Shown piece after piece: positions 38,810 through 63,740 of a DNA stretch of 64,000 nucleotides. Below the pieces are notes generated by a model. It searched no databases, was not told where the DNA came from, and saw only the letters and a list, made by a program, of their open reading frames with translations. The stretch is from a virus: IMG/VR virus record IMGVR_UViG_3300046368_000651, positions 1 through 64,000 of that record; one strand, given 5' to 3'. The position numbers were made by a program, and so were the translations under genes. Numbering within the stretch: position 1 is the first letter of the stretch; every line of letters starts with the position of its first letter.

Positions 38810-40855
38810 TTATTTACTTGTGGCTACAAAGATGCCATTCCAATCTGAAGGCAAATCCTGTGTTTTCATATATTCACAACGTTCAATCCACATATCGTAA
38901 TACTTTTCCATCTTGTGATCAAAGTGTGTATACAACATCTTACACTTGTCTATAGCGTCATCAAAACGCTGCGCACGATAGTCTTCGTGCATTTGTTCAT
39001 GTTTCTTCTGCGCACTACGCCATGCAGGATATGGCTTATCCAACACTGTGTAAATTTTAAGTCCTACACTTTTGCCTTTGACTTGCAAGTCATCTACTTT
39101 GAGGTAGAAGAAATCTGTTCTAGTTGCTTCGTATGTAGATTCTCCTACAAGTAACAAACACCCATACTCTTTACATTTGCTTTCTACTCTTGCTGCGGTG
39201 CTGACAGCGTCTCCAAGGACATCATATGAATGACGTTTAGTACTTCCCATCTCACCAAGGTACCCCAGCCCTGTGTTGATGCCAGCGCCCATACCAACAG
39301 CAGGACGACCATCAGGTATAATAACTTCTTCATTAAACTTCTCCACTGCTTTAAGCATGTCTAAGCCACACTGTACTGCTGTACGAGGATGGTTAGGATC
39401 ATCTATAGGCGCATTGTGTATGTGCATACTAGCATCGCCTATGTACTTGATTATCATTCCGTCTGACTCTAACACAGGTTCTGTAATAGCATCCATGTAG
39501 CCATTCATAATACGTGTGAGTCCTTGTACGTCATCTCCAAAACTTTCTCCTAGTGGTGTAAATCCACGCAAGTCTGAGAATACAATACTTACATTACGCT
39601 TAGTGCCCAGTTTAATAAGCTCTGGCGACTCCTGTAGTAGTCTAACCACTGTTGGTGATGCATAACCTTCGAATTGCTTTTTGATGGCTTGCTTTTGTAA
39701 GAACTCGTCGACGAACTTGACAATGTATCGTTTGAGCCCAACGAGCAAGATGAAAGCACTGATAACAGCGCCATCGATAAGAATATTTTGTGTATTGAAA
39801 ACATATATGCTCCCTCCTATAAACCCGCCCACGGACAACACAAAGAAGGCTATGCCTACAAATGTCCAACGGGCGAGTATGATTAACAAAACGCCGGCTG
39901 CAACTAGAGCTGCTAGTTCTGCCCACTGCTCTGCGTCTGGATGTCTGCTAATATTTGATTCATTAAACACTGTTCCTAGCATTGCTGCCTGTATTTCGTG
40001 TGGAAATACACTGCCTGCTGCTGTTGCTAGTGGCTGTGTAAGCCCTGCTGCTGTTGGTCCTACAAACACTATACCGCCAGCAAAGTCATCTGGTAAGTCA
40101 ACTGCGCTCACGCTTTTGCTGCGCTGACTCCAGTCTATCCATACTTCGCCTGTGGGGCTTGTTTGTATTATACCATATGCTGGTATGCGTAGTTTATCTA
40201 CACCCATAGGTGATAGTTTAATTTGGAAGCTAGGATCGCCTGCTAGTACACGTAGCACTTCCATAGTAACATTTGGATATAATGTACCACTAGATTCAAC
40301 TACTAGAGGTATACGTCTAGTAACACCGTCTACTTCCGGCCAACTGTTTGTTATTCCACTACCTACTGCGTTGAATTCAATATCTGGTACATTTGCGATG
40401 ATTCCTGGAACACTAGGAATAGTATAAAGAAAGTCGCTGTTAACAATAGTAGCGCCTGGATTGACTGGTTCATTTTTGTTGTCCTCCGCACCTAACATAG
40501 TAACTATAACAGGTAATTGCTGCATTGTCAAGCCTAATGTAGCATCTTCACCTGACCTGTCTTCTTCCGACATCAATACATTGAAAACCACTAGTCCAGC
40601 GCCTCTGGCATATAAGTCCTCTATAAGGCTACCATAATCACCTCTCGGCCACGGCCATTGTCCGTAAGCCTCTAAACTTGGTTCATCGATGTTCACTGTG
40701 TAAATGTTGTTTTCAACAGGTTGTTGATTTACAATAAGTGTATCAAAGTAGCGTAGTCGTATGCTTTCTATAAATGCTGGATTAAGATAGTATACATAAC
40801 TCAGCACACCTAATAATAAAACACTCCAAAGCGGGCTGAACAGTACTTTTCTCAT
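38810..40855 (-). CDS. CHASE2-domain class III adenylate/guanylate cyclase
   Basis: 681 residues. An N-terminal membrane helix (residues 7-24) leads into a periplasmic CHASE2 sensor (about 28-300, with DEPSLEAYGQWPWPR and DGVTRRIPLV). Three membrane helices follow (about 311-375), then a class III cyclase domain (about 420-600). Metal-binding Asp are in IVFSDLRGFT and KYIGDASMH; VLGDAVSTAARVE and VKGKSVGLKIY follow as in active cyclases. It should make cAMP or cGMP in response to a periplasmic cue. FecR proteins often neighbour CHASE2 genes in bacteria, as here. ATGA overlap with the gene upstream. Confidence 0.88.
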   Translation of the reverse strand: MRKVLFSPLWSVLLLGVLSYVYYLNPAFIESIRLRYFDTLIVNQQPVENNIYTVNIDEPSLEAYGQWPWPRGDYGSLIEDLYARGAGLVVFNVLMSEEDRSGEDATLGLTMQQLPVIVTMLGAEDNKNEPVNPGATIVNSDFLYTIPSVPGIIANVPDIEFNAVGSGITNSWPEVDGVTRRIPLVVESSGTLYPNVTMEVLRVLAGDPSFQIKLSPMGVDKLRIPAYGIIQTSPTGEVWIDWSQRSKSVSAVDLPDDFAGGIVFVGPTAAGLTQPLATAAGSVFPHEIQAAMLGTVFNESNISRHPDAEQWAELAALVAAGVLLIILARWTFVGIAFFVLSVGGFIGGSIYVFNTQNILIDGAVISAFILLVGLKRYIVKFVDEFLQKQAIKKQFEGYASPTVVRLLQESPELIKLGTKRNVSIVFSDLRGFTPLGESFGDDVQGLTRIMNGYMDAITEPVLESDGMIIKYIGDASMHIHNAPIDDPNHPRTAVQCGLDMLKAVEKFNEEVIIPDGRPAVGMGAGINTGLGYLGEMGSTKRHSYDVLGDAVSTAARVESKCKEYGCLLLVGESTYEATRTDFFYLKVDDLQVKGKSVGLKIYTVLDKPYPAWRSAQKKHEQMHEDYRAQRFDDAIDKCKMLYTHFDHKMEKYYDMWIERCEYMKTQDLPSDWNGIFVATSK

Positions 40856-43660: not shown

Positions 43661-44496
43661 TAGTTGTGCTGCTGAACACTTACAACACACCCGTTTGGGT
43701 TTGTACATACACCACTTAGGCTAAATGATTTAGCAGAAGTGTCTGTTTGTTGACTAACTGTTACGTTATAGGCAGGACCATATATGCTTTCTACACTAAT
43801 GTTTGCTGATGCAGAATTCATTCCACGTTGGTTTAAATCAATTACATTGTAATTTCCTGACAACTCAATGTCAGCAGTTTTTTGTCCGCCATTGCCTTTC
43901 TGATAAGTTGTAACATCATTTCCAGTACCTGAAATATCAATGTCTAATAGATGCTTTTGATTTCCTCTTTGCGTCATTTCAACATCGTTGCTATTACCAG
44001 TAATTTCTGCGGTTAATTCATGCCTACCATAGCCTGAAGTTTGTTGATCAGTTTGTGCTGCTTTAATATCGTTATAATTTCCAGTAATTGTAACTGTAGC
44101 AGTGTGATCACCGCCCTCTGCTAAGTCAATTGTACCATCAGCATGTTTACCTTGCCATATTACCAAGTCGTTGTTATCACCAGTAACTCGAGAAGTGATC
44201 ATTCCACTATCACCGCCGCCGCCTTGATAGAAATCTACATTATTGTTATCACCGTCTAACATTCCCTGGACGCCATGATACATACCTGTTTGTACCATAT
44301 CAATCGTATTGCCATCGCCTTCAATACCTTTAGTCTCACCAGGTATTCCACTGATATAATTTACATCCCCATCTTGAGTCAAGGTTAATGCATTATTGTC
44401 ACCAACTTGGTATACATAAATTTCATTTGCATTACTAGTAGTCGTTTTGATTGATAGTAATATTGTTAGCGCCACCGACGCCCACTTGATATCCAT
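43660..44496 (-). CDS. Curlin-repeat protein 2 (CsgA/CsgB-like)
   Basis: 278 residues from ATG 44496, which gives a signal peptide (MDIKWASVALTILLSIKTTT up to SNA). The mature part starts NEIYVYQVGDNNAL, close to that of the other curlin gene. At least eight copies of a 22-26 residue unit of the form G.xN.V...Q.G follow (GDGNTIDMVQTG, GTGNDVTTYQKG, GNYNVIDLNQRG). Ends with two Cys (GVCTNPNGCVVSVQQ). Likely secreted through CsgG and assembled into amyloid-like fibres. Confidence 0.82.
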   Translation of the reverse strand: MDIKWASVALTILLSIKTTTSNANEIYVYQVGDNNALTLTQDGDVNYISGIPGETKGIEGDGNTIDMVQTGMYHGVQGMLDGDNNNVDFYQGGGGDSGMITSRVTGDNNDLVIWQGKHADGTIDLAEGGDHTATVTITGNYNDIKAAQTDQQTSGYGRHELTAEITGNSNDVEMTQRGNQKHLLDIDISGTGNDVTTYQKGNGGQKTADIELSGNYNVIDLNQRGMNSASANISVESIYGPAYNVTVSQQTDTSAKSFSLSGVCTNPNGCVVSVQQHN

Positions 44497-45577
44497 ATTT
44501 GTAAAATCCTCCCTGCACCATGTCAACACTATAACTATGACTTTGACTTAGTCTTAATTGAAAAAAGTGTTGATCGCCTTCTGCTCTCCTTACTATAAAA
44601 TAAGGATATTCTTCATCGTAAAATATATTTGTTTCTGGATCTAGTCCAAAAAACTTTTCTTGAAAAAATTGTATGTTTTGAGTTCCTAGCTCATCAAACC
44701 ACTGTGCTAATATTTCAGCAAGTTGTTTTTCCATAGCATCTATAAACTCTGAATTTAGATAACTTGTATTATCTAAGTCTGTAACCCAGATGTTTTTAAT
44801 TCCTTCTACAAGCGGATCTTTATCAAGTTCGTCAAACTTTAAAAAATCAATATCTAACAAATTTGTGTTTGGATATTGCCTTACTATTTCCTCTGTGTAA
44901 GGAGAAACTTTTCTTATGATTAACATTGCGGTAAGCATATCTTCTGGCAAGTTTAGTGTAATTGGTCTTTTAGGCACTGCTCCTGCGTGTGCTACAACTG
45001 TAGTTTGAAATGCTTGATTCATAATAACTGTGCCTGCGTCTGATTCTACTTCAATTTCGCCAACAACACACAGTCCTGCAACATCGCAACTAGGCAATAG
45101 TGTTACCATACTACCGCCAATCTCGTCTATAATCATCATAAAATCTGTGCCACGCACGTTGATAGTTGCACTTGGTGTTCTAATGTTTACTCTTTGTCTG
45201 CTGTTTTTTGCAATTTGTCCACTAGCATAACGTACTGCACCTAGTGTTGCTTTCATTGACAATGCACCTTTTTGTGTAGCAGGATCGTATATAAACTCAT
45301 CTATAGTCATACGACTATTTTCTGTAACATCAACCCTAGTGTCATCAATAAAATCTAAACGTAATCGACCTTTGCCTGTTACAACATTGTCGTTCATTTG
45401 TAACCCAAGACCTACTTCGCCTGTGTATGCTTCTTTGTCTCGCTTGATTGTACTGCTGCCTTTAGATTCGGCAATCTCGCCAATAGGAGATGCTTTGGCC
45501 ATATCTACATACGCCAGCGCAAAAAATATTATGTATAAAAGTCTAGTCGGTTTGTGTAATATCAACTGTGTTACCAT
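44435..45577 (-). CDS. FecR-domain periplasmic protein
   Basis: 380 residues. The N-terminal hydrophobic segment LLYIIFFALAYVDMAKA looks like a signal peptide or anchor. Residues 45-190 carry a FecR-type domain: LQMNDNVVTGKGRLRLDF, TRVDVTENSRMTIDEF, TPSATINVRGTDFMMI. The C-terminal half is acidic and helical, then ends in a curlin-like GGANNITINQND. In bacteria such FecR proteins pair with CHASE2 sensors. Overlaps curlin 1 by 35 bases and curlin 2 by 62. Confidence 0.8.
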   Translation of the reverse strand: MVTQLILHKPTRLLYIIFFALAYVDMAKASPIGEIAESKGSSTIKRDKEAYTGEVGLGLQMNDNVVTGKGRLRLDFIDDTRVDVTENSRMTIDEFIYDPATQKGALSMKATLGAVRYASGQIAKNSRQRVNIRTPSATINVRGTDFMMIIDEIGGSMVTLLPSCDVAGLCVVGEIEVESDAGTVIMNQAFQTTVVAHAGAVPKRPITLNLPEDMLTAMLIIRKVSPYTEEIVRQYPNTNLLDIDFLKFDELDKDPLVEGIKNIWVTDLDNTSYLNSEFIDAMEKQLAEILAQWFDELGTQNIQFFQEKFFGLDPETNIFYDEEYPYFIVRRAEGDQHFFQLRLSQSHSYSVDMVQGGFYKYGYQVGVGGANNITINQNDY

Positions 45578-46295
45578 CCCCAGTCGAAGTCATGTCTACC
45601 AAGTTGTCGTTGATGCCACTTTGTGTAATAGTGTATACACTGCCAGCGCCTGTAATGTCTAATGTTACAGTATGCCCTAAACTATCGCCGTTACCTGATA
45701 TTGCTAAATCAACAATGTTACCAGGTGAACTGGTAGTTAATGTGTTATCATTTGCACTTGTAATTGTTGATCCACTTCCTGTTGAAGCACTGTTATCAAT
45801 TTCAATAGTAATGTTAGCATCAGTGCCATCTAAGTCCATGTCAACTAAGTTGTAGTCACCGTCTACTGTGAAGTTAATTGTAGCATCGCCAGCGTCATTG
45901 GTTTCGCCAATCTTGAAGTCAAACGTATTCAAGTCGCCTGTTGTAGTAATATTTAATGTTACACTATCGCAATTTCCGCCACCTGCTGTTGCTGCGCTAT
46001 CACACAATAAGTCAACATTGTTACTGTCTCCAGTAAACTGCCATGTACCTGTGTAGCTATCACCTGCAATAATTGCATCAATGGTATTAGTATCGCCAGT
46101 TTGTGTTATACTAAACACCATGTTGTCGCCATAGAGGCCAGCGTCTGTAGTACTGTCTCCAATTTTGTTATCCTTGCCATCTTGTGAGATGTCCAAATCT
46201 AAACTATCGCCAATTTGTGTGATGTATATCTCGTTTGCATGTGCTGCACTTACGAGAACCCACGATAGTATAAAACTATATAATGCTGCCCTCAT
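45543..46295 (-). CDS. Curlin-repeat protein 1 (CsgA/CsgB-like)
   Basis: 250 residues from ATG 46295, chosen for its GAGGAG SD and signal peptide MRAALYSFILSWVLVSAAHA. Mature start NEIYITQIGDSLDLDISQ. Repeats of the form GD.N.VD (SITQTGDTNTIDA, FTGDSNNVDLLCD, VDGDYNLVDMDLDG, TSTGDGNTVDITQT) recur every 20-40 residues. It is unusually Asp-rich with few basic residues, so the fibre would be acidic. Contains an approximately 33-residue Cys loop (LLCD..GNCD). Confidence 0.82.
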   Translation of the reverse strand: MRAALYSFILSWVLVSAAHANEIYITQIGDSLDLDISQDGKDNKIGDSTTDAGLYGDNMVFSITQTGDTNTIDAIIAGDSYTGTWQFTGDSNNVDLLCDSAATAGGGNCDSVTLNITTTGDLNTFDFKIGETNDAGDATINFTVDGDYNLVDMDLDGTDANITIEIDNSASTGSGSTITSANDNTLTTSSPGNIVDLAISGNGDSLGHTVTLDITGAGSVYTITQSGINDNLVDMTSTGDGNTVDITQTD

Positions 46296-46401
46296 TTTTG
46301 CTCCTCTGGGGTTTCCCCTAAATGTATTTACCTCGTGCCTCAACGAATAATAAATACACTTATATTTAGTGTAAATATATTTACAGATAAAGGCTATTAT
46401 A

Positions 46402-46680
46402 ATGAAAACTGCATACGTAATCAACGCTTTGAAACAAGCAGAACAAAAACACAAAGAACAAGAAGAATTCTGGAACTTGTTTAACGAGATTTGGTCTGAT
46501 GAAGTGCCAAAACAATATTCTTTAAATGACGAAGTTGATCAATTACAGATTGATAAGATACAACGAGCGTTAGATGAAAACGATGGCAACAGAACTTATG
46601 CTGCAAAATCACTCGGTATTAAAAGAGAAACACTATTAGCTAAAATGAAACGCTATTGTTTAAACTGCCACAAGTCTTGA
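46402..46680 (+). CDS. Fis-type HTH DNA-binding protein
   Basis: 92 residues. A charged helical N-terminus (QAEQKHKEQEEFWNLFNEI) precedes a C-terminal Fis/NtrC-type HTH (HTH_8): IDKIQRALDENDGNRTYAAK and SLGIKRETLLAKMKRY. It is the only plus-strand gene here and lies between csgG and curlin 1. Its last 28 bases overlap csgG. Probably regulates the divergent curli genes. Confidence 0.8.
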   Translation: MKTAYVINALKQAEQKHKEQEEFWNLFNEIWSDEVPKQYSLNDEVDQLQIDKIQRALDENDGNRTYAAKSLGIKRETLLAKMKRYCLNCHKS

Positions 46681-47435
46681 TTTGCACCTTGATAGATTAA
46701 TTCAATGACGCCTTGTTCAATTGCTTCACGCACTGCATAGTTTGTAGGTTCGTTAACACTATAACCTGTTTCAATTTCTAATGCCTTTGTGCCTAAGTCT
46801 AAGAATTTAAATACATCTGCTCCAGCACGATAACTTGCTATTGTTTTTTCTGATGCAACGCTAACTAGTACACGCCCTGTACTAACACTTACAATACGCA
46901 TTGCTACGGTTACTGTGTCGACTCTGTATTCTGCTGCTGTTCCAATACCAAAGTATCTAGCGCCAGTGCCTCCTGTAGTAACATTTGAGTCATACCCAAC
47001 TATACCGCCTTCGATAATTATACCAGCAAATTTCATTGGTGCTAACGGTGAAGCATTATCTTTTTCGTAGTTTTCTCTAGTGTTACGTATTAATTGACGC
47101 TCGCGAATAATGTTGTCCATGCCCACACGTTCTACAACTTCAAACCATGTGCCGTTGCCTGCTTGTAACAATGCATCTATTACCCAAACTTCAGCGCCTT
47201 GTGTTACAGCACTTGACAGGTTAGCAACATTTTCTGCTGGCTTACGCTGCCCAGTTTTGTCTGTAAAACTATAAACAGCAATTGTCATCACAGGACCATT
47301 TAATGGCTTTAGTTCGTTAAGTTCTTCAACCATTGGATTATCTTGTATCTTTGCAGGGCTTTGTAGCTGTGCTGGAATATTTCCTGCGCTGCATCCTGCA
47401 AGCATTAATGCTGTAATTAACAATAAATGTTTCAA
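46653..47435 (-). CDS. csgG: CsgG-type curli secretion channel lipoprotein
   Basis: 260 residues. MKHLLLITALMLAGC has a lipobox with C15 as the lipidated Cys. MTIAVYSFTDKTGQRKP, WFEVVERVGMDNIIRERQL, FAGIIIEGGIVGYDSNVTTG and YRVDTVTVAMRIVSVSTGRVL match CsgG, a nine-fold outer-membrane pore that exports curlin subunits. The C-terminus (REAIEQGVIELI) also fits. It shares ATGA with csgF upstream. Confidence 0.92.
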   Translation of the reverse strand: MKHLLLITALMLAGCSAGNIPAQLQSPAKIQDNPMVEELNELKPLNGPVMTIAVYSFTDKTGQRKPAENVANLSSAVTQGAEVWVIDALLQAGNGTWFEVVERVGMDNIIRERQLIRNTRENYEKDNASPLAPMKFAGIIIEGGIVGYDSNVTTGGTGARYFGIGTAAEYRVDTVTVAMRIVSVSTGRVLVSVASEKTIASYRAGADVFKFLDLGTKALEIETGYSVNEPTNYAVREAIEQGVIELIYQGANQDLWQFKQ

Positions 47436-49387: not shown

Positions 49388-49394
49388 TATTTAT
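49388..49394 (-). promoter_or_regulatory. Late-promoter-like motif ATAAATA
   Basis: TGAATAAATATATAA on the minus strand at the end of the bilin reductase gene, 21 bases before the nuclease-like start. Confidence 0.4.
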
Positions 49395-50077
49395 TCAATA
49401 TCAGGGAATAAACATTCTTGTACGAATACTCTTACGTCCTCTTCGTCAAGTCCTAAACTGGTCATTGTTTTAGGAGTATGTGGATTTTGTTTTTGGTAAT
49501 GGGCATAACGATTTTGTGCAGTCTTAACTTCATCTGTATCTGCCATATGATTGTGATTACCAATTTCAGTAAGATATGCATCAACACTATCTAAACTAAG
49601 TTCTAGTAGTTGATCAAGTTCTTCACGTTTGCTCACGTTACCTGCTGCTACCATATGTGGTGAGAAAATTGCTTGAGCCCACTCAGGTAGTTCACGTTCT
49701 TTGCGCCATTCAAGTTTACCTACTTCGTCACCAAATGCTTCAATCATTGGATGATCAGCATCTACGGTTCTGCTGTAGTCGTGAAAGAATCCTGTAATTT
49801 TATTTTTACCAGCAATAACATCTAAGCCAAAAACAGGACCGTTATTGTCTAGTCTAGGAAATACACAACAATGCATCATCCACAAGCCTTTGCTGTCACG
49901 TACATCAACTACATCAATGTGTGCTCTGCGATAGCTGTCACTGCTCCATACTCTATTAAGCCAGCCTGGTTGATTGAATCTATCCATGCCAGGTTCTTGT
50001 ATTTCTGTACCTGTAGCATCAAATGCATCAATTAGTCTATCTTGTATTTCAATTAAGGTTTCCCAAACTTCACTCAT
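49391..50077 (-). CDS. pcyX: Ferredoxin-dependent bilin reductase (PcyX-like)
   Basis: 228 residues. RRAHIDVVDVRDSKG, MMHCCVFPRLDNNGPVFGLD and ELPEWAQAIFSP are the core of ferredoxin-dependent bilin reductases. H69 and D86 align with the catalytic H88 and D105 of PcyA at the same spacing of 17; D55 lies where PcyA has E76. The match is closest to PcyX, a viral group from uncultured oceanic phages reported to make phycoerythrobilin from biliverdin. It shares an operon with heme oxygenase. Product assignment is from family knowledge. Confidence 0.82.
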   Translation of the reverse strand: MSEVWETLIEIQDRLIDAFDATGTEIQEPGMDRFNQPGWLNRVWSSDSYRRAHIDVVDVRDSKGLWMMHCCVFPRLDNNGPVFGLDVIAGKNKITGFFHDYSRTVDADHPMIEAFGDEVGKLEWRKERELPEWAQAIFSPHMVAAGNVSKREELDQLLELSLDSVDAYLTEIGNHNHMADTDEVKTAQNRYAHYQKQNPHTPKTMTSLGLDEEDVRVFVQECLFPDIE

Positions 50078-51255
50078 GTTCTCTCCGTTTCAATAAATTT
50101 ATTCTCTGGCAGCGATCCCCAATTGTAATATACTAAATGGTCAACGCCGATTTTTTTAGGTTGTTCGTATGCCTCTGACATAAACAAAAGCAAGTTTAAT
50201 TTTTCGTCATTGGCTGTATAATTAATTTGTGATCGTAGTTGTTTCTGTTCTTCGTTGTATGATGATACTAATAGTTCGTAGTTGTGAACTATATCTTGAT
50301 TGATCTGATCAAACGGTAATGTATTCCAATTATCTTTAAGCCAGGTTATGTTTCTATATATAGTATCATATCTTTGTAATGTATTGTAAATGTGGTCGTA
50401 TTTTTCTGGGAAGTATTTTTCAAACGTTCTATAGCCCTGCTTACTTAGGCATTCTAGCATCCGCGGCTCGGCAAACATTATAAACGGATGATGATTTAGT
50501 ATTGCTCTCCATGTTTTTTCAGTGATCCAATTGCTACCAGTTTCAGGGCAACTATTTGATTCTGATATGAAACTAAAAGATGTATTTTCATACAGCGTGT
50601 GATCAAACGGAACTCCGTCGTGATGGAAAGCGCCTCCGGCCTTAACGTGAGATATTTGATCTGGGTTCCGAGCATGTCTTTTTAAAAACTTCGCTACAAA
50701 CTTTTTACTTCGAATGGGTTCCTGGGCGTCTCTATTAGCCTTATGTACTACATCGGTTATAGCATCAACTTGACTATTGACATAGTGCAAACTCCATTCC
50801 ATGTCGTTTGTATTTAATATTTCCAGTTCTTTAAATTGTATTAATGGCATGATCCTATTTAACTTGTCTGATTTACCTGATAGAAACAAGCCTCTAAATT
50901 TATCTCTATTCCACTTGGTGGAGAATTTTTGATCTTGATGGTCAACACTGTGTAAAATTTTATGCTTGAAGAATGCATATGGTATTACGTATGGGTGATG
51001 AAATTTAGTATCTTGTAATTGTGCTAAGTTGCAAAAATGAAAATGCAAATAGTTTTCCTGCGTACAGTATCTATGAATATACTGAACGTGTTGCTGTAAT
51101 AGACCGGATGGGTACAATTCCCAAAGCGACGATGTTATAACTGTTATTTGATATTCTTTGAAGGTTTCAAAAAATTCCTTCATGTGTTCGACTGTGTTCT
51201 GGGCATTGTTAGCATCATCAACAGGAATATTAAAAAATGCAAATAACCTTTTCAC
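50074..51255 (-). CDS. Glycosyltransferase-like protein between HO and PcyX
   Basis: 393 residues. The C-terminal half has SFSFISESNSCPETGSNWIT then EKTWRAILNHHPFIMFAEP, the pattern of GT10/exostosin-type C-terminal domains (ITEK, acceptor or donor helix, HPFI). The N-terminal half is alpha/beta without clear motifs. It overlaps both pcyX and heme oxygenase by four bases (ATGA or TGA), so it is part of the bilin operon. Whether it acts on bilin or on a glycan is unknown. Confidence 0.5.
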   Translation of the reverse strand: MKRLFAFFNIPVDDANNAQNTVEHMKEFFETFKEYQITVITSSLWELYPSGLLQQHVQYIHRYCTQENYLHFHFCNLAQLQDTKFHHPYVIPYAFFKHKILHSVDHQDQKFSTKWNRDKFRGLFLSGKSDKLNRIMPLIQFKELEILNTNDMEWSLHYVNSQVDAITDVVHKANRDAQEPIRSKKFVAKFLKRHARNPDQISHVKAGGAFHHDGVPFDHTLYENTSFSFISESNSCPETGSNWITEKTWRAILNHHPFIMFAEPRMLECLSKQGYRTFEKYFPEKYDHIYNTLQRYDTIYRNITWLKDNWNTLPFDQINQDIVHNYELLVSSYNEEQKQLRSQINYTANDEKLNLLLFMSEAYEQPKKIGVDHLVYYNWGSLPENKFIETERT

Positions 51256-51791
51256 TCACTCTCCAACTCCTCAAATAATTGCATAGCAAATTGAAAACAA
51301 ATATTTGCTTCTTCGGCCATGTCGTCGTGTAACATCGATCTCACTGTAGTTTTTAGTTCTTCTACATTTTCAAAATCATACATTGTGCCAGAGCCAGGAT
51401 TACGTTTGCGAATCATTTGTCCGCCGTACATATCACCAAAGTGTCTAACATAAAGATGTGCTAGAAATTCGTCCCTGTGTTCCATGTGCATTACATAATC
51501 TGTGTAGTCTGCTACAACTTGACAAAGTTGCAGTTCTTTACGATCAATATCAAACTCTTCTTCTAGTTCGGTCATATCCGCATGGATATTATTTGCTCTA
51601 GCAAGGTGTTCAATGCCTTCTAATGCACCGTGTCTGCCGGCTTGTGCTTCTAGTACTGCATACAATGCCCATTGATTGTAAAGGTAAGTATGGTATTCTT
51701 CTGGTTTCATGCCCTTCAATAACTTGCGGGCATGTTCTGTTCTTTCTGCTTTACTATGGTTTTCCCATGTAAGTTCTTTAAGTTTGCTCAT
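51252..51791 (-). CDS. ho1: Heme oxygenase (HO1/HemO type)
   Basis: 179 residues, all-helical. WENHSKAERTEHARKLL gives the proximal heme His (H12) in the HxxxE motif. HLYVRHFGDMYGGQMIRK is the distal helix with the Gly kink. The enzyme opens heme to biliverdin, CO and Fe2+, using reduced ferredoxin. Overlaps clpS and the GT-like gene by four bases. It gives the substrate for the PcyX-like enzyme. Confidence 0.92.
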   Translation of the reverse strand: MSKLKELTWENHSKAERTEHARKLLKGMKPEEYHTYLYNQWALYAVLEAQAGRHGALEGIEHLARANNIHADMTELEEEFDIDRKELQLCQVVADYTDYVMHMEHRDEFLAHLYVRHFGDMYGGQMIRKRNPGSGTMYDFENVEELKTTVRSMLHDDMAEEANICFQFAMQLFEELESE

Positions 51792-52136: not shown

Positions 52137-52583
52137 TTAACCTTCAATTGCATCAAAGTTTTTGATAGAAATTTTCTTTGGTTTCTGTGCTTCTGGCACA
52201 TTGCGCACCAAATGAATGTTAAGCATACCTAATTCAAGTCCAGCTTGTTCTACTTCGATATGCTCTGCTAGAGTAAACTCTCTACGGAAGTTACGTCCGC
52301 CAATACCTTTATGTAGGTAATTAACGTCTTCGCCTCCTGGAGGAGTAGTACCTTCAATTGTAAGGACATTCTTTTCTAGTGTAATATCCAAATTGTCCAT
52401 ACCAAAGCCAGCAACTGCCAACGAGATCATATACTCGTCTTCGTCGATTTCTACTACATTGTATGGTGGATAACCTTGTGATTTACTGTTTGCAAACTCT
52501 TTGTTGAGTTGGTTAAACATTCTATCAAAGCCAATAGTTGCTCTGTGAAATTCAGGTAGGTTTAGTGTTGTTAATCTTGTCAT
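52137..52583 (-). CDS. hsp20: Hsp20 small heat-shock chaperone
   Basis: 148 residues from ATG 52583 with an AAGGAG SD. PYNVVEIDEDEYMISLAVAG begins the alpha-crystallin domain. NVLTIEGTT, HKGIGGRNFRREF and GMLNIHLVR finish it. The N-terminus (FHRATIGFDRMFNQLNKEF) is the IbpA type. It holds unfolded proteins; marine T4-like phages commonly carry it, perhaps for virion assembly. Confidence 0.93.
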   Translation of the reverse strand: MTRLTTLNLPEFHRATIGFDRMFNQLNKEFANSKSQGYPPYNVVEIDEDEYMISLAVAGFGMDNLDITLEKNVLTIEGTTPPGGEDVNYLHKGIGGRNFRREFTLAEHIEVEQAGLELGMLNIHLVRNVPEAQKPKKISIKNFDAIEG

Positions 52584-52635
52584 TTGTTTCTCCTTATAAA
52601 GCAAGAATTATATTGAGCCCTTTCGGCGCTCATGT

Positions 52636-53796
52636 TTATTTACCAATTGTCGATCCTTCATAGACCGGATTGTGTGTTTGTGTGCAACGAATAAATGTTG
52701 TACACTTTGCTAGTTGTTTTAGTTTCATTGCACCTGCATAGGTACATGTACTACGCACACCTCCGAGGATCTCTTGTACCGTTCTGGCTACTTCTCCTCT
52801 ATAAGGCACTAACACTGTGCGTCCTTCTGATGAACGATAGTTTTTCAATCCACCAAAATGCTTGTCGTTTGCACTTTCGCTACTCATACCGTAGAATTGC
52901 ACAAAATGTTTTTCTTCATAAACAGATTCAAAGAATCCGTCATCTGTTTTAGTTACTTCATTGGTTTCGTAAGTCTTAGTGATTATCTCACCACCGCCTT
53001 CATTGTGCCCAGCAAGCATGCCACCAAGCATAACAAAATCTGCGCCGGCAGCAAAGGCCTTAGCGACATCTCCAGGGCAAGTACACCCACCGTCAGCAAT
53101 AATGTGACCACCAAGTCCGTGTGCTGCATCAGCGCACTCGATGACTGCAGATAGTTGCGGATATCCCACACCAGTTTGAATCCTAGTAGTGCAAACAGAC
53201 CCGGGACCAATGCCCACTTTAACAATATCAGCTCCTGCAAGGATAAGTTCCTCCGTCATTTCTCTAGTTACTACGTTACCAGCAATGATTACCAAGTCTG
53301 GAAACTCTGTACGTACTTTGCGAACGTGTGCTGCAAAATGATCGCTGTAACCATTAGCAATATCTATACATACATATTTAAGTTTATGTTCAACTTCTTT
53401 CTTTACTTGCAATAGTTTGTTGTAATCACTATCACCTGTGCCAATACTCATGGCTACATTTTCGGTGCGTTCTATAGAATCGCCATCTAAGTCTGCACCA
53501 TTGAAGTACTCAATTAAATATTCTGCACTGTATGTCTTAACCAAACAAGTAAACATTTCGCCTTCAGCAAGTTTGTCCGCCATGCGCATTGTACCAACAC
53601 CGTCCATATTACTTGCCATTATTGGAATACCTTCGTAGTGATATTCATCAGGTAATGGTGTTGCAATGTCGTGATCGTAATGCCTAAATTGGAACTTACG
53701 ATTAAGTTTAACTTGACTACGACTTTTAAGTGTACTACGCTTAGGACGGATCAACACATCCTTGTAGTCTAATTTAATATCTTCTTCAATTCTCAT
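52636..53796 (-). CDS. guaC: GMP reductase (IMPDH/GMPR family)
   Basis: 386 residues, slightly longer than bacterial Gua[31 protein letters not shown] and the catalytic loop [20 protein letters not shown] (Cys) are clear, then [20 protein letters not shown] and QFYGMSSE. The enzyme reduces GMP to IMP with NADPH, rebalancing purines. No CBS domains, which supports GMPR over IMPDH. Overlaps the SGNH gene by 11 bases. Confidence 0.85.
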
Positions 53797-58995: not shown

Positions 58996-59802
58996 TTAGA
59001 AGTTGAACGATAAACCTGCTGATGGTGTAAAGTCTTCTGCATCTGTGTCATAGTCAACACCAGCAGTAAATTCTGCACCTGCATAGTCCATTGTGTACTC
59101 ACCACCAATGTGCTGTAGTGTGTTTGCATCTGTACCGTTTACGTATGCTGTTAGTGAGTTTACTGCAAATGTGCCTTCATATGCAAATACTTCTGCATCT
59201 GTGTCATATGTTAATGCACTACCTGCTGTTGCTACACCTAAGTCTACGCCAGATACTGCACCACCGAACACTGTGTTTTCACTGTCCATGTTGTAGTCCA
59301 TTGCACCTGTAATAGCAAAACGATCCATATCAATTGTGTATGAACCTTGAATGTTGCTTACATCAGTTACATCTGTTGTCCAGTCTGTTAAGCCTAGTGC
59401 TACACTTGCACCAGCTACTGATACTGCTAATGATTCTGTCATTGCTGGTGTTGCCAATGTTCCGTCAGCTGCTGCATTTGCATCTGTTTCTGGCATTAAG
59501 TTGTTGTCGTCACCAAACGCTAAGCCTACGCCTGCTACTGTAGTTCCTACAGTCCATGTGTCTAGTGTTAGAGCACTACCGTCTGTTGCACTAAAGTCTA
59601 GATCTACTGTTGCCAATGAACCTGCATCGATGTCTAGTTCGATACCCATTGTGCCACCGTAGTTGTCACCAGCTGTTTCAGCAAAGTCTAAGTTTACTGC
59701 ACCTGAGATAACTGGGCCTGTTGGAGCCGCTGTTGTTGTGTCTTCCGCTGAAGCCGCACTTGCAAATGCCGCTACTGCTAAAATGGTAAATACGTTACGC
59801 AT
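58996..59802 (-). CDS. Outer-membrane porin-like beta-barrel protein
   Basis: 268 residues. Signal peptide MRNVFTILAVAAFASAASA. The rest alternates Gly, Asp and hydrophobic residues in strands (VISGAVNLDFAETAG, GIELDIDAGSLATVDLDF, FTAGVDYDTDAEDF) and ends SAGLSFNF, the C-terminal Phe signature for BamA insertion. Very acidic, few Lys. Single-gene transcript with its own late-type promoter, leader hairpin and terminator. It may alter nutrient uptake or block superinfection; this is inference. Confidence 0.8.
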   Translation of the reverse strand: MRNVFTILAVAAFASAASAEDTTTAAPTGPVISGAVNLDFAETAGDNYGGTMGIELDIDAGSLATVDLDFSATDGSALTLDTWTVGTTVAGVGLAFGDDNNLMPETDANAAADGTLATPAMTESLAVSVAGASVALGLTDWTTDVTDVSNIQGSYTIDMDRFAITGAMDYNMDSENTVFGGAVSGVDLGVATAGSALTYDTDAEVFAYEGTFAVNSLTAYVNGTDANTLQHIGGEYTMDYAGAEFTAGVDYDTDAEDFTPSAGLSFNF

Positions 59803-59950: not shown

Positions 59951-60172
59951 TTATCCGCCGCCTTGAAATGTACCGTCATTGGCTCTATACCAATTCTTTT
60001 GGTTGTGTATTCTACCCAACAGTTCTTGTATCTCTGTCATTTCATCATGCAGTTGTGTTGATACATCACCTTGTGCAATAGCCATACCTCTACGACCTGC
60101 TTTTGCTCTTAGTGCTGATTCAATAACTTCAATGTCACGAATCGATAATTCAAACTGTTTGTTAGGTTTCAT
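59951..60172 (-). CDS. Small phage protein, unknown
   Basis: 73 residues, helical (IRDIEVIESALRAKAG then LHDEMTEIQELLGRIHNQK) with a Gly-rich tail. Resembles small conserved proteins of marine T4-like phages (from memory). Preceded by a promoter with the extended -10. Confidence 0.55.
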   Translation of the reverse strand: MKPNKQFELSIRDIEVIESALRAKAGRRGMAIAQGDVSTQLHDEMTEIQELLGRIHNQKNWYRANDGTFQGGG

Positions 60173-60173
60173 A

Positions 60174-60356
60174 TCACCAAACTCCTAATGTTCTTCCGTT
60201 GCCTGCTATAATAGCACAACATGTTAGTATATGCAAGACAATCCAAAACGTTCTAAACGCTAGTGCTCGTCTTACATCTTTTTGTCGAATGGGCAAGAAC
60301 TCTGGTTTGTCATCGTCACTAAGTCCGATTGGCATTCCAACTGTCCTTGCCCACAT
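60174..60356 (-). CDS. Small membrane protein in the electron-transfer run
   Basis: 60 residues from ATG 60356; the upstream part of the frame lies inside the DoxX-like gene. MWARTVGMPIGLSDDDKPEF is soluble and FRTFWIVLHILTCCAIIAG is a membrane helix with a Cys pair. Role unknown. Confidence 0.55.
   Translation of the reverse strand: MWARTVGMPIGLSDDDKPEFLPIRQKDVRRALAFRTFWIVLHILTCCAIIAGNGRTLGVW
60208..60236 (-). promoter_or_regulatory. Early-type promoter inside a coding region
   Basis: TTGCAT (60231-60236), 17-base spacer ending TGC, TATTAT (60208-60213). Lies in the end of the 60356 gene and faces the 60172 start. Confidence 0.5.
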
Positions 60357-60379
60357 TTTTAAAAAGCGTCTTTGTCCGC

Positions 60380-60787
60380 TCAAGTTCTGTTTCCTCGCAG
60401 AGCAAAGTACATGCCACCTACCCAAAGTAGTACATGCAGATTGTCATACCATAAGACGTCCCAGAAACTTTCGGGTTCGCCTGTCCATATAACACCTGTC
60501 ATAATACTGGCAATAGTAATACCACTGAAACGTGTAATAACATCGCCAAACTCTTTTGTGCGTTTGATATAGTCTGCCATGCCGCCGACCAACAATCCTG
60601 CGGCAGCACCAAGCTCTCCAAGTACAACAAACGTCCAAACTAATAGTGTAAGTTCTACTGGTGAGTCTTCAATGTTGATTGGCCACTTGTTCATTCCTTG
60701 CTGAAAGAATACAACAATAAGCGGAATACGAAGCAGCCAATGAGTCATACAAAACTCTGGTATTCTGTGTACTAAAGTTTTAATCAT
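60380..60787 (-). CDS. DoxX-like membrane protein
   Basis: 135 residues with four hydrophobic helices (HWLLRIPLIVVFFQQGMNKW, TFVVLGELGAAAGLLVGG, ITIASIMTGVIW, LHVLLWVGGMYFAL). FFQQGMNKW and the GELGAAAGLLVG segment fit the DoxX/DoxD type, which is linked to quinone or terminal-oxidase systems. Start overlaps the pseudoazurin stop (TAATG). Confidence 0.6.
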   Translation of the reverse strand: MIKTLVHRIPEFCMTHWLLRIPLIVVFFQQGMNKWPINIEDSPVELTLLVWTFVVLGELGAAAGLLVGGMADYIKRTKEFGDVITRFSGITIASIMTGVIWTGEPESFWDVLWYDNLHVLLWVGGMYFALRGNRT

Positions 60788-61206
60788 TACAGATCAGCCA
60801 GCAACTCCTTGAATTTCTTTTTTGACTTGCCTTTTACTTTTGTTTTGGAAATATCATTATCTCCGTCACCTACAACTACAATAGCAATCATACCCATTGT
60901 TTTGTGTGGAGTACACTGATACAAATACACACCTGGTGTGTCAAATGTAATCGCAACTTCTTTTGATAGTTTTGATTTACGTGGTGCGTCCCATCCGTCC
61001 GGACCTGCAATAAATTCTACATTGTGTCCTTTTGATGTTGGTACCCATGTGATTGTATCGCCTACTTCAATACGTGCGATATCTTCACTATATACCATCT
61101 TAGCGCCATCTTCACGCTTGTTTAGCATATCGATCGTCATATCCTCTGCGAGTGCCGGAGTGGCAAGGGCGAGGATAATACTTACTGAACTTAATAATTT
61201 TCTCAT
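60787..61206 (-). CDS. Pseudoazurin-like blue copper protein
   Basis: 139 residues. Signal peptide MRKLLSSVSIILALATPALA. EVGDTITWVPTSKGHNVEF gives His61; YQCTPHKTMGM gives Cys98, His101 and Met106, with the C-x2-H-x4-M spacing of pseudoazurin. The C-terminus is very Lys-rich (KTKVKGKSKKKFKELL). It would carry electrons in the periplasm. It lies inside a five- or six-gene membrane operon with an oxidase-subunit-like gene. Confidence 0.9.
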   Translation of the reverse strand: MRKLLSSVSIILALATPALAEDMTIDMLNKREDGAKMVYSEDIARIEVGDTITWVPTSKGHNVEFIAGPDGWDAPRKSKLSKEVAITFDTPGVYLYQCTPHKTMGMIAIVVVGDGDNDISKTKVKGKSKKKFKELLADL

Positions 61207-61415
61207 TTCTTATCCTTTACATTGAGATTGGACGGATTGTATTGTTCGCCATTATAGCCAGGGTAGGTGTCGTCCTCTACCCCAAAGTTACATGATGCCA
61301 CAATAAACAAAAATGCTATTGATGCATATGTAGTTCGCTTGCTCCATGTTATGAAGCCTTCGAATGTCTTTTCTGCTTCTATTTGAGCGGCTGCTCTTAC
61401 TTCATTGTCTGTCAT
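61203..61415 (-). CDS. aa3-type cytochrome oxidase subunit IV-like protein
   Basis: 70 residues from ATG 61415, fixed by an ATGA overlap with the gene upstream. EKTFEGFITWSKRTTYASIA then FLFIVASCNFG matches the small alphaproteobacterial subunit IV pattern (acidic start, T/Y-x-GF, W-x-K/R, one membrane helix), with an extra acidic tail. The resemblance is to a short motif, so it is moderate. Shares ATGA with pseudoazurin. Confidence 0.5.
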   Translation of the reverse strand: MTDNEVRAAAQIEAEKTFEGFITWSKRTTYASIAFLFIVASCNFGVEDDTYPGYNGEQYNPSNLNVKDKK

Positions 61416-61570
61416 TCTAAACCTATACACGGAATAAGAATAGATTGCTTACAATTTTCTGGGTAAGCAATAGCTGAGCCAAGTATAGGTAGACCAACCA
61501 TACCAATAATGATAATCAAGAATGCCCAACCTAGGCCTTTTGTAGTGCAATATTGTGTTTGCTCACTCAT
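61412..61570 (-). CDS. 52-residue membrane protein
   Basis: MSEQTQYCTTKGLGWAFLII then a membrane helix (GMVGLPILGSAIAY) and two further Cys (ENCKQSILIPCIG). Overlaps its neighbours as ATGA and by eight bases. Probably part of the same membrane complex. Confidence 0.6.
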   Translation of the reverse strand: MSEQTQYCTTKGLGWAFLIIIIGMVGLPILGSAIAYPENCKQSILIPCIGLE

Positions 61571-61922
61571 GCTCGCCACCATTTGCTCGGCCGTTGTACT
61601 TACGTCCTGATTTCAAAATGTTGTTAAGTGACTCTGGATTATTTTCTGCTTGACGGAATGTTACAACTGTAATTGTAATACCACTAATCAAAAGCAAGTG
61701 AAAGGCTGCGCTTAGGCCAAAAGCCACGTAACTTCCTACCATTAGGGCAAAGATGCCACTCCAGATAAAAAACAGACACTGGAAGATCATGTGTCCTACC
61801 ATAGGGTCTAAATTACGTAGTGGTGACTTTTCTACTGTCATTACACTGTCCCACATTTCACGTGGAATGTTTGCAATTTCAGTTAGTGTGGTTGCCCAAC
61901 CAATGGGTTTTGGATTCTTCAT
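61563..61922 (-). CDS. Two-helix membrane protein, first gene of the operon
   Basis: 119 residues. A conserved-looking cytosolic start (GWATTLTEIANIPREMWDSV and VEKSPLRNLDPMVGHM) precedes two membrane helices (QCLFFIWSGIFALMVGSYVA, AAFHLLLISGITITVV) and a soluble tail. Directly follows the early promoter. Family not recognised; its place suggests an assembly or anchoring role for the electron-transfer proteins. Confidence 0.6.
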   Translation of the reverse strand: MKNPKPIGWATTLTEIANIPREMWDSVMTVEKSPLRNLDPMVGHMIFQCLFFIWSGIFALMVGSYVAFGLSAAFHLLLISGITITVVTFRQAENNPESLNNILKSGRKYNGRANGGEHE

Positions 61923-61955
61923 AGTTTTCTCCTGTGTGTCTTTTGGTGTGTACTA

Positions 61956-61984
61956 TATATAGCATAAAAAAATACAGAAGTCAA
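61956..61984 (-). promoter_or_regulatory. Early sigma70-like promoter (electron-transfer operon)
   Basis: TTGACT (61979-61984), 17-base spacer ending TGC, TATATA (61956-61961), 33 bases before ATG 61922. Confidence 0.78.
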
Positions 61985-61998
61985 CCGTGCAAGGTGTG

Positions 61999-62604
61999 TT
62001 AAATTGTAGCAGGCATAGTAAATAATGCATGTACACCATCATCGGTTGGCCTACGTGCAAATACGCACCACTTGATTACATCTTGATTAGGATAATGTTC
62101 GTCACAATACTCTCGAAAACTTGTTCCTGTTGTGTACACATCATCTGCAATTAATACAGGATCTGTTGGATCTCCGCTTGCATATTTGTTTAGTGCTTCG
62201 CCTAGTGCCATACCGCCTCTTGGGATACCTTCGGCTTTGTAGAAAGGACGTTTTTGGTAATCCATTATCATACGTGCAAGTCCTTCCCACCACTCTGGGC
62301 GTATAGCATCGCACTCAATCTTCCATGCTAGTTTTAGTCCTGCATGACTTGTAAAGTCGCCAACTTCAAATAAATCTGCGCCTGTTCTAAATACCATTAG
62401 TTCTCTTTCCAATTCTTCAATATAATCTGCTGCTTGCCAAGCAAAATGTTCTGTGCATCTTGTCTTCCATTCTTCGCCTGCTTGATTTTTTAATCTTACA
62501 ACCCATTCACTTTTTTGTTGTCTTGGTATAATATCTGTATATACCTTATCAACTACATCGTGTTCGTTTTCTTCTAATTCGAATCCGTGTGTATTATGCG
62601 TCAT
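61999..62604 (-). CDS. Phosphoribosyltransferase-like protein
   Basis: 201 residues from ATG 62604. DPVLIADDVYTTGTSFREYC is the PRPP-binding motif, and KAEGIPRGGMALGEALNKYA is the pyrophosphate loop. The N-terminal 90 residues are an extra helical domain. Probably purine or pyrimidine salvage; base specificity unknown. Overlaps the aldolase gene by 11 bases. Confidence 0.75.
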   Translation of the reverse strand: MTHNTHGFELEENEHDVVDKVYTDIIPRQQKSEWVVRLKNQAGEEWKTRCTEHFAWQAADYIEELERELMVFRTGADLFEVGDFTSHAGLKLAWKIECDAIRPEWWEGLARMIMDYQKRPFYKAEGIPRGGMALGEALNKYASGDPTDPVLIADDVYTTGTSFREYCDEHYPNQDVIKWCVFARRPTDDGVHALFTMPATI

Positions 62605-63409
62605 TATTAGCACCTGTTATCATTTTAATATTCTGTGACAACTTTGCGTTGAACTCTGCATCTGTTTGCGAATGTGCTAGTCCTTCACTTAATGCTCTGC
62701 TAAAACTTGCTGTGATGTCATTATTCATTGATAGCCTACGGCATGCTTCTTGTGTAGCATATCCGCCACTAAGGAATACAACCTTTTCTACGTTGTGTTT
62801 AACTGTCAAGTTATGATACAAGTTAGGTGTTTCAGGAGGTGTTAGTTTAAGAATAACGGAAAAGTCTTTGCCTTGTAAATATATTTCTAACAATCGATAC
62901 AGCTCATCTTCAATTGCGGCTTTGTCAGGATGATCAATCGGCACTTCGGGTTCGACAATTGGTACAAGACCGTACTCACTAATTGTGTGTGCTAGTTCAA
63001 ACTGCTGTTTAAGAACTGCACCTATCATGCTTTCACTTTTAATAATGCTACGCATCTTAGTGCCGTAGATTCGAGGACCAATGCCGTTTGTAGCCCATTC
63101 GCACATAGCACGTACATCAAATTCTTTGAGCATACCGTTGTCTTCGCATCCGCTATCAACTTTTAGAAACGTGTCAATACCTTTTTCATCAAGCACATTA
63201 ACCATGCCGCGGGTGACTGTGTCTTGGTAGAGGATTGCTCCCCAGATGTTTGAGTCGTTGAAGTCAGGACTGTTGACCATTCTAAGACGCATAGCATGAA
63301 CTTTCTCCATCTTGTTTTCTTCTGTGTATTCTTGTCCGTAGCGTTCTAGTACGCCACCTGTTGAACCACCACTGTGATCCATTGCTGCAATAAATCTATG
63401 ATCACTCAT
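62594..63409 (-). CDS. Class I fructose-bisphosphate aldolase
   Basis: 271 residues from ATG 63409; the longer frame lies in the HAD gene. HRFIAAMDHSGGSTGGVLER, FGTKMRS-like IYGTKMRSIIK, VPIVEPEVPIDHPDKA and the Schiff-base Lys segment SVILKLTPPETPNLY match bacterial class I FBA closely; ITASFSRALSEGL is the phosphate site. Cleaves or forms fructose-1,6-bisphosphate; in phages it may steer carbon to the pentose-phosphate pathway. Confidence 0.9.
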   Translation of the reverse strand: MSDHRFIAAMDHSGGSTGGVLERYGQEYTEENKMEKVHAMRLRMVNSPDFNDSNIWGAILYQDTVTRGMVNVLDEKGIDTFLKVDSGCEDNGMLKEFDVRAMCEWATNGIGPRIYGTKMRSIIKSESMIGAVLKQQFELAHTISEYGLVPIVEPEVPIDHPDKAAIEDELYRLLEIYLQGKDFSVILKLTPPETPNLYHNLTVKHNVEKVVFLSGGYATQEACRRLSMNNDITASFSRALSEGLAHSQTDAEFNAKLSQNIKMITGANNDA

Positions 63410-63740
63410 ATGTTTCGCCTGTTTCACGGAAGAAGTTTTCACTCCAAAATGCTTTGTCGTCAATCCATACATCGTAGTTTTCTTTTTTGCCTACGCTGAG
63501 TTCATGATACTTTGCACCCCAACCCTCTAATTGGTTCTTGGTTAGGTCGTAATAGTCAACGCCACTAACACACCCGCGAGCAGTCATATACTTAATTGTA
63601 TGTCCTGCATCGTACAATGCATTTACTCGTGCAATGCGTTCTGGCATTGGAATATGATTTGCATAATCCTTCTTGCCGCCGCTGTCTGGAATAATTACTT
63701 CCTTGCAGATCGTACCGTCGATATCAATTACATATTTCAT
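63402..63740 (-). CDS. HAD-family phosphatase
   Basis: 112 residues. MKYVIDIDGTICKE has the catalytic DxDGT. TIKYMTARGCVSG gives motif II and DVWIDDKAFW motif IV. Short, capless HAD type, like polynucleotide-kinase-3'-phosphatase or sugar-phosphate phosphatases. Overlaps the aldolase by eight bases. Substrate unknown. Confidence 0.8.
   Translation of the reverse strand: MKYVIDIDGTICKEVIIPDSGGKKDYANHIPMPERIARVNALYDAGHTIKYMTARGCVSGVDYYDLTKNQLEGWGAKYHELSVGKKENYDVWIDDKAFWSENFFRETGETYE

Follow-up and report, generated by a model that had tools for sequence, protein, structure and literature searches.

A seven-gene phage operon encodes a putative pseudoazurin together with small, mostly membrane-bound proteins. 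The reading that we favour, at slightly better than even, is a phage auxiliary cassette that would provide the oxidase end of the host respiratory chain with a heme-free electron carrier and membrane partners. The analysed window is a 64-kb stretch out of a linear IMG/VR virus record of 75,758 bases, and the seven close-packed genes, designated A to G, are located on its minus strand at 61922-59951 (Table 1). Successive genes overlap by 8, 4, 4, 1 and 4 nt, and a 1-nt gap precedes G. The original prediction had listed six overlapping genes; the tight packing is real, and the count becomes seven with G, which had not been listed and is separated from F by that gap. The starts of B (61570, MSEQ), C (61415) and F (TTG, 60383) were refined by comparison with relatives, the TTG of F being inferred from an ATG at the same position in the relative L146.

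Table 1. Predicted features of the cassette, in window coordinates
Feature	Position	Strand	Description
Promoter-like element	61956..61984	-	TTGACT-N17-TATATA; 34 nt upstream of gene A; kept in divergent relatives
Gene A	61563..61922	-	119 aa; predicted two-helix membrane protein; conserved C-terminal GEHE
Gene B	61412..61570	-	52 aa; one predicted membrane helix; conserved CTTKG and PC motifs
Gene C	61203..61415	-	70 aa; N-terminal part aa3 oxidase subunit IV-like; lipobox-like V-A-S-C-N; 28-residue tail
Gene D	60787..61206	-	139 aa; predicted pseudoazurin precursor
Gene E	60380..60787	-	135 aa; predicted DoxX-family four-helix membrane protein
Gene F	60174..60383	-	69 aa; TTG start; one predicted membrane helix; basic
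Gene G	59951..60172	-	73 aa; small, soluble-looking; operon end

A scan of the single sequence scored the promoter-like element no better than chance. By comparison with relatives, a matching promoter was found upstream of 25 of 43 distinct units that begin with A and 13 of 36 that begin with D, against a background of 3.6% in random windows. Across the relatives it takes the form TTGACTT-N13/14-TGCTATATA ahead of the first module gene. These results support the earlier proposal of one promoter for the operon, and genes A to G appear to sit behind a single, conserved sigma-70-like promoter. All seven genes are under purifying selection, with median dN/dS of 0.11-0.31 (0.11 for A and E, 0.12 for F, 0.15 for D, 0.19 for G and 0.31 for B), which rules out chance ORFs. 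As is characteristic of an auxiliary metabolic cassette, host-type genes are present in a phage genome, their dN/dS is well below 1, and they recur on hundreds of viral contigs.

The product of D matches Pfam Copper-bind (1.5e-15) and, over positions 1-115 of 116, the NCBIfam pseudoazurin model TIGR02375 (6e-30, 103.3 bits; cut-off 109.85), with a score far ahead of those from the amicyanin and plastocyanin models. Pseudoazurins in the PDB were matched with E-values down to 1e-32. The type-1 copper ligands H61, C98, H101 and M106 are invariant in an alignment of 13 sequences, in agreement with the blue copper protein with four ligands that had been proposed, and the His, Cys, His, Met pattern with CxxHxxxxM spacing is present in 92/92 untruncated unique viral copies. 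The N terminus resembles a signal peptide, ending A-L-A before ED. By its sequence, D qualifies as a complete pseudoazurin that retains the four copper ligands. It is 45-66% identical to clearly cellular pseudoazurins, the closest of which are from marine Rhodobacteraceae (64-66%), followed by PS1/OCS116-type lineages and then SAR11. In a tree, the viral copies cluster together (support 85/84), intermixed only with copies from phage contigs binned into MAGs and with that of MED-G08. Three contigs, L171 (PBPT01000016.1, 335 kb), L155 and L162, had been binned into Neomarinimicrobiota, Muricauda and Rhodobacteraceae MAGs; they look like phage contigs and were dropped as cellular relatives. L171 encodes a pseudoazurin and two copies of A.

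The likeness of C to an oxidase subunit, which formed part of the original prediction, persisted in profile searches against Pfam and the PDB and in hhalign. The window protein matches COX4_pro_2 above the gathering score (2.7e-5, 24.7 bits vs 22), and several relatives fall below or miss the Pfam threshold (L043, 17.3 bits; L059, no match). When a profile built from 16 viral C proteins was run at E<=10 against 177,635 PDB sequences, it hit only three chains, all of them aa3 subunit IV (1m56_D, 1qle_D and 5weh_D), each weakly at E of about 1. Despite the weak single scores, we regard the specificity of these matches as telling for a putative relationship. A comparison with six cellular subunit IV proteins by hhalign gave 95% probability, the likeness spanning only about 26 residues. 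The same profile found no match in 289 alphaproteobacterial genomes. C resembles aa3 subunit IV in its N-terminal KTF-x-GF motif and in the first part of the hydrophobic segment. Subunit IV is a short protein with a single full membrane helix, ending after that helix. In contrast, the hydrophobic stretch of C is too short to score as a full membrane helix and ends in a lipobox-like V-A-S-C-N motif, found in 72 of 75 unique relatives, beyond which lies the conserved 28-residue tail. Because this motif and tail differ from subunit IV, we call C only 'subunit-IV-like' and would not place it in the family. The COX4-like part could simply be a lipoprotein signal, given the lipobox-like motif.

E is assigned to the DoxX family on the basis of profile matches of its relatives and a predicted four-helix topology. 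The window protein itself scored below the threshold of PF07681 (0.0038, 18.2 bits; threshold 23.6), and matches above it were obtained for the relatives L008 (2.7e-8) and L098 and for cellular homologues. The AF2 model is a four-helix bundle (pLDDT 81). It gave no Foldseek match at E<=0.001, and solved structures yielded neither a sequence nor a fold match. The DoxX family is broad and functionally diverse. Like its other members, E is a small four-helix membrane protein, and it differs in forming a distinct phage subfamily with invariant IPEFC..HW and D..HV.LWVGG motifs.

Searches with A, B and F against Pfam, PHROGs, NCBIfam and the PDB gave nothing convincing. A was modelled by AF2 as a hairpin of two helices (pLDDT 70), and B carries CTTK in 67 of 80 unique relatives. 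Of the five small membrane proteins claimed originally, A, B, E and F do look membrane-bound, and C has only its short hydrophobic stretch. G had no database match and may lie outside the electron-transfer function.

The contig encodes a tail fibre, ribonucleotide reductase (NrdAB) and further phage genes; this content of an IMG/VR record, together with hundreds of viral contigs, rules out host DNA misread as phage. A protein with CHASE2 and adenylate/guanylate cyclase domains (38810-40855, minus strand) is 51% identical to its counterpart in Melnitz and 34% to that in HTVC008M, and a ferredoxin-dependent bilin reductase (49391-50077, minus strand) is 46% identical to that of the Mosig pelagiphage. 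These neighbouring genes point to marine myophages of the HTVC008M/Mosig/Melnitz type as likely relatives, and the host is probably a marine alphaproteobacterium. The contig UViG_2747842453 (L248), searched for host assignment, had no match in the phage collection. Melnitz, HTVC008M and Mosig are likewise large marine myophages, sharing the cyclase (Melnitz and HTVC008M), the bilin reductase (Mosig) and gene A (Melnitz). They differ from the present phage in B, C, D and E, of which tblastn over phage records including these three found no relative; A is the only cassette gene found among cultured phages.

Several other genes of the same phage were recorded. A heme oxygenase gene is located at 51252-51791 on the minus strand, and an unmatched 393-aa ORF (50074-51255) lies between it and the bilin reductase gene. 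A CsgG-like curli secretion protein (46653-47435, minus strand) adjoins an ORF with a weak curlin-repeat match (45543-46454, minus strand) and an ORF with a FecR domain (44435-45577). On the minus strand, the phage also encodes IMP dehydrogenase/GMP reductase (52636-53796), Hsp20 (52137-52604) and a protein resembling class-I fructose-bisphosphate aldolase (62594-63472).

The gene set is widespread among uncultured marine phage contigs. Scans of IMG/VR yielded 487 relatives of C, 268 of D and 406 of E, and 131 relatives were obtained with a single A query. Co-occurrence was counted over dereplicated loci flanked on both sides by 3 kb or more. As these had been selected for their similarity to the proteins of the window, the counts describe the nearer relatives. 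On this basis, the 20 E loci contained D in 18, C in 14 and B in 12 cases, and the 26 D loci contained C in 19, E and B in 18 each, A and G in 13 each and F in 5. Roughly one in four of all dereplicated loci of D or E contains F. Loci that hold three or more of B, C, D and E show 21 different arrangements or subsets, including D-E-B-C, E-B-C-A-D and A-B-C-E-D. D, E, C and B are co-inherited despite their shuffled order, and they constitute a cassette, not a coincidence. The co-occurrence of neighbours with pseudoazurin, on which the original prediction depended, is found in many divergent phage contigs. A is the loosest-linked member and no obligate part; contigs G022 and G023 carry it but lack D, C and E, and in the cultured OM43 phage Melnitz it stands alone, 84% identical to one relative. 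About 20 of 49 representative loci encode, on the upstream side of the cassette, a phage DUF1127 protein and a second small protein (FAMGVWAFGESAGRARAAAEL...) (e.g. L277:4728-4985 and L261:4848-5057). Downstream, a 268-aa protein with a signal peptide, a porin-like look and no Pfam match (window 58996-59802, minus strand) follows the cassette in many relatives.

Early regions of phages typically encode short membrane proteins of unknown function. The small membrane proteins of the operon might serve membrane takeover or superinfection exclusion by remodelling or blocking the envelope, with the pseudoazurin hitchhiking; the solitary A in Melnitz and the lack of relatives of known function for B and F are consistent with this. 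However, D and E form the tightest pair (18/20), the copper ligands are kept in every full-length D, and D, E and C have not been separated by the reshuffling of gene order. We consider this explanation improbable.

Cellular relatives of D and E were found beside respiratory genes. In nine marine alphaproteobacterial genomes, a close pseudoazurin is directly divergent from genes for a CuA-type, aa3-type oxidase, in a cluster of COX2 with a complete CuA motif (CAEYCGTGHYAM), COX1 (6.8e-130) and a third gene. Close relatives of E are likewise chromosomal. In two small alphaproteobacterial genomes, such a DoxX-like gene is immediately followed by one for an NDH-2-type NADH dehydrogenase, and this NDH-2 is fused to a cyclic-nucleotide-binding domain (L398:6568-8664 and L397:5126-7204). 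In MED-G08, an E relative and a pseudoazurin gene are on one contig, about 8 kb apart. Taken with the oxidase-subunit likeness of C, these respiratory neighbours argue that the cassette most likely acts at the oxidase end.

The cellular neighbours of A give a different picture. A relatives are present in 19 of the 289 alphaproteobacterial genomes, and one of them lies directly upstream of genes for an ECF sigma factor and a ChrR-like cupin anti-sigma (L411:4687-6437), which suggests that the A family may be part of photo-oxidative stress responses. Others are near another ECF sigma gene and a BLUF photosensor (L414), near a PAS/LOV-like protein (L408) or near short-chain dehydrogenases. In addition, the gene after pseudoazurin in 10 marine Rhizobiales-like genomes is flavin amine-oxidase-like. 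These neighbourhoods, together with the DUF1127 gene upstream in some relatives and the heme oxygenase and bilin reductase of the same phage, are the basis of the main rival reading, a redox or photo-oxidative stress cassette that would protect the envelope from oxidants such as singlet oxygen and peroxide, or act as an electron sink, instead of driving ATP synthesis. The stress pattern weighs less because A is only loosely tied to D, E and C, and the D-E-C-B core has no such neighbourhood. Moreover, pseudoazurin is an established electron carrier and no antioxidant, and C points to the oxidase. We regard the stress reading as rather unlikely.

In denitrifying alphaproteobacteria, the classical role of pseudoazurin is electron donation to copper nitrite reductase or nitrous oxide reductase. 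D might similarly aid nitrogen-oxide respiration by serving one of these host enzymes at low oxygen, and viral nirK and norB have been described from oxygen-depleted waters (PMC8115048). No gene for a nitrite, nitric oxide or nitrous oxide reductase was present among the neighbourhood families, the cassette has an oxidase-like subunit instead, and the close cellular neighbours include the aa3 oxidase, all of which make this role most improbable.

In the favoured reading, action at the oxidase end, we infer the export and copper loading of D, its partner enzymes and the effect on infection. D would be exported to the periplasm, load copper and serve as a heme-free single-electron carrier like cellular pseudoazurin, most likely taking electrons on the quinol/bc1 side and passing them to the CuA site of the host aa3-type oxidase. 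C may dock on or near the oxidase, with its lipobox-like cysteine and tail in the periplasm; E could be a membrane partner on the quinone/dehydrogenase side, and B, A and F may be small accessory membrane proteins. Because the cassette has no cytochrome, quinol-oxidising or oxidase catalytic subunit, these partners must be supplied by the host. Proton pumping and ATP supply would be maintained, or redirected, during the collapse of host gene expression, the effect being either to sustain or to divert host electron flow. The original idea of a respiratory or electron-diversion module is upheld in part by the co-occurrence, the oxidase-IV match and the pseudoazurin beside aa3 oxidase in cells, and is weakened where A is concerned, since A is not obligate and has relatives in stress-type neighbourhoods. 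In a bolder and distinctly doubtful version, a phage-made assembly of C, E and B, with A and F, would capture either the quinol pool or the aa3 oxidase of the host and couple it to the phage pseudoazurin. Terminal respiration of infected marine Alphaproteobacteria would then pass through heme-free wiring of phage origin, and in phages with heme oxygenase this wiring would replace cytochrome c as heme is degraded. A general heme-depletion story joining heme oxygenase and pseudoazurin was rejected, as only 4 of 13 long records that carry D have the bilin reductase.

The best-known phages that rewire electron transport infect cyanobacteria: cyanophages carry plastocyanin to keep photosynthesis going. 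A phage electron-transport cassette is thus already known in kind, and the one described here is, on our reading, respiratory and copper-based. A conserved respiratory counterpart, present in hundreds of contigs from phages of marine heterotrophs, would mean that viruses manipulate ocean respiration as well as photosynthesis, using copper in place of heme. Several families without a Pfam match would gain a testable role, and what a phage needs from a terminal oxidase becomes a concrete experimental question. A viral cbb3 oxidase subunit I has been described in an Indian Ocean virome (PMC3474794). Azurins, plastocyanin and cytochromes go unmentioned in papers on pelagimyophages, Melnitz and uncultivated pelagiphages. 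We found no report in the open literature that joins phage auxiliary metabolic genes with pseudoazurin; most subscription journals lay outside this search, and an earlier report is possible.

Two known systems are closest to the cassette. The pseudoazurin of marine Alphaproteobacteria is a full-length cellular homologue of D with the same ligands, and D differs from it in sitting in a phage operon and grouping with other viral copies. The cyanophage plastocyanin (petE, PHROG 515) is likewise a phage-encoded, exported type-1 copper carrier, which is thought to maintain host electron transport. It belongs, however, to another cupredoxin family, as D scores 103 bits with TIGR02375 and 34.9 with TIGR02656 (cut-off 87.85). 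Unlike plastocyanin, D occurs in a heterotroph lineage with no photosystem, in the company of oxidase-IV-like and DoxX-like membrane genes.
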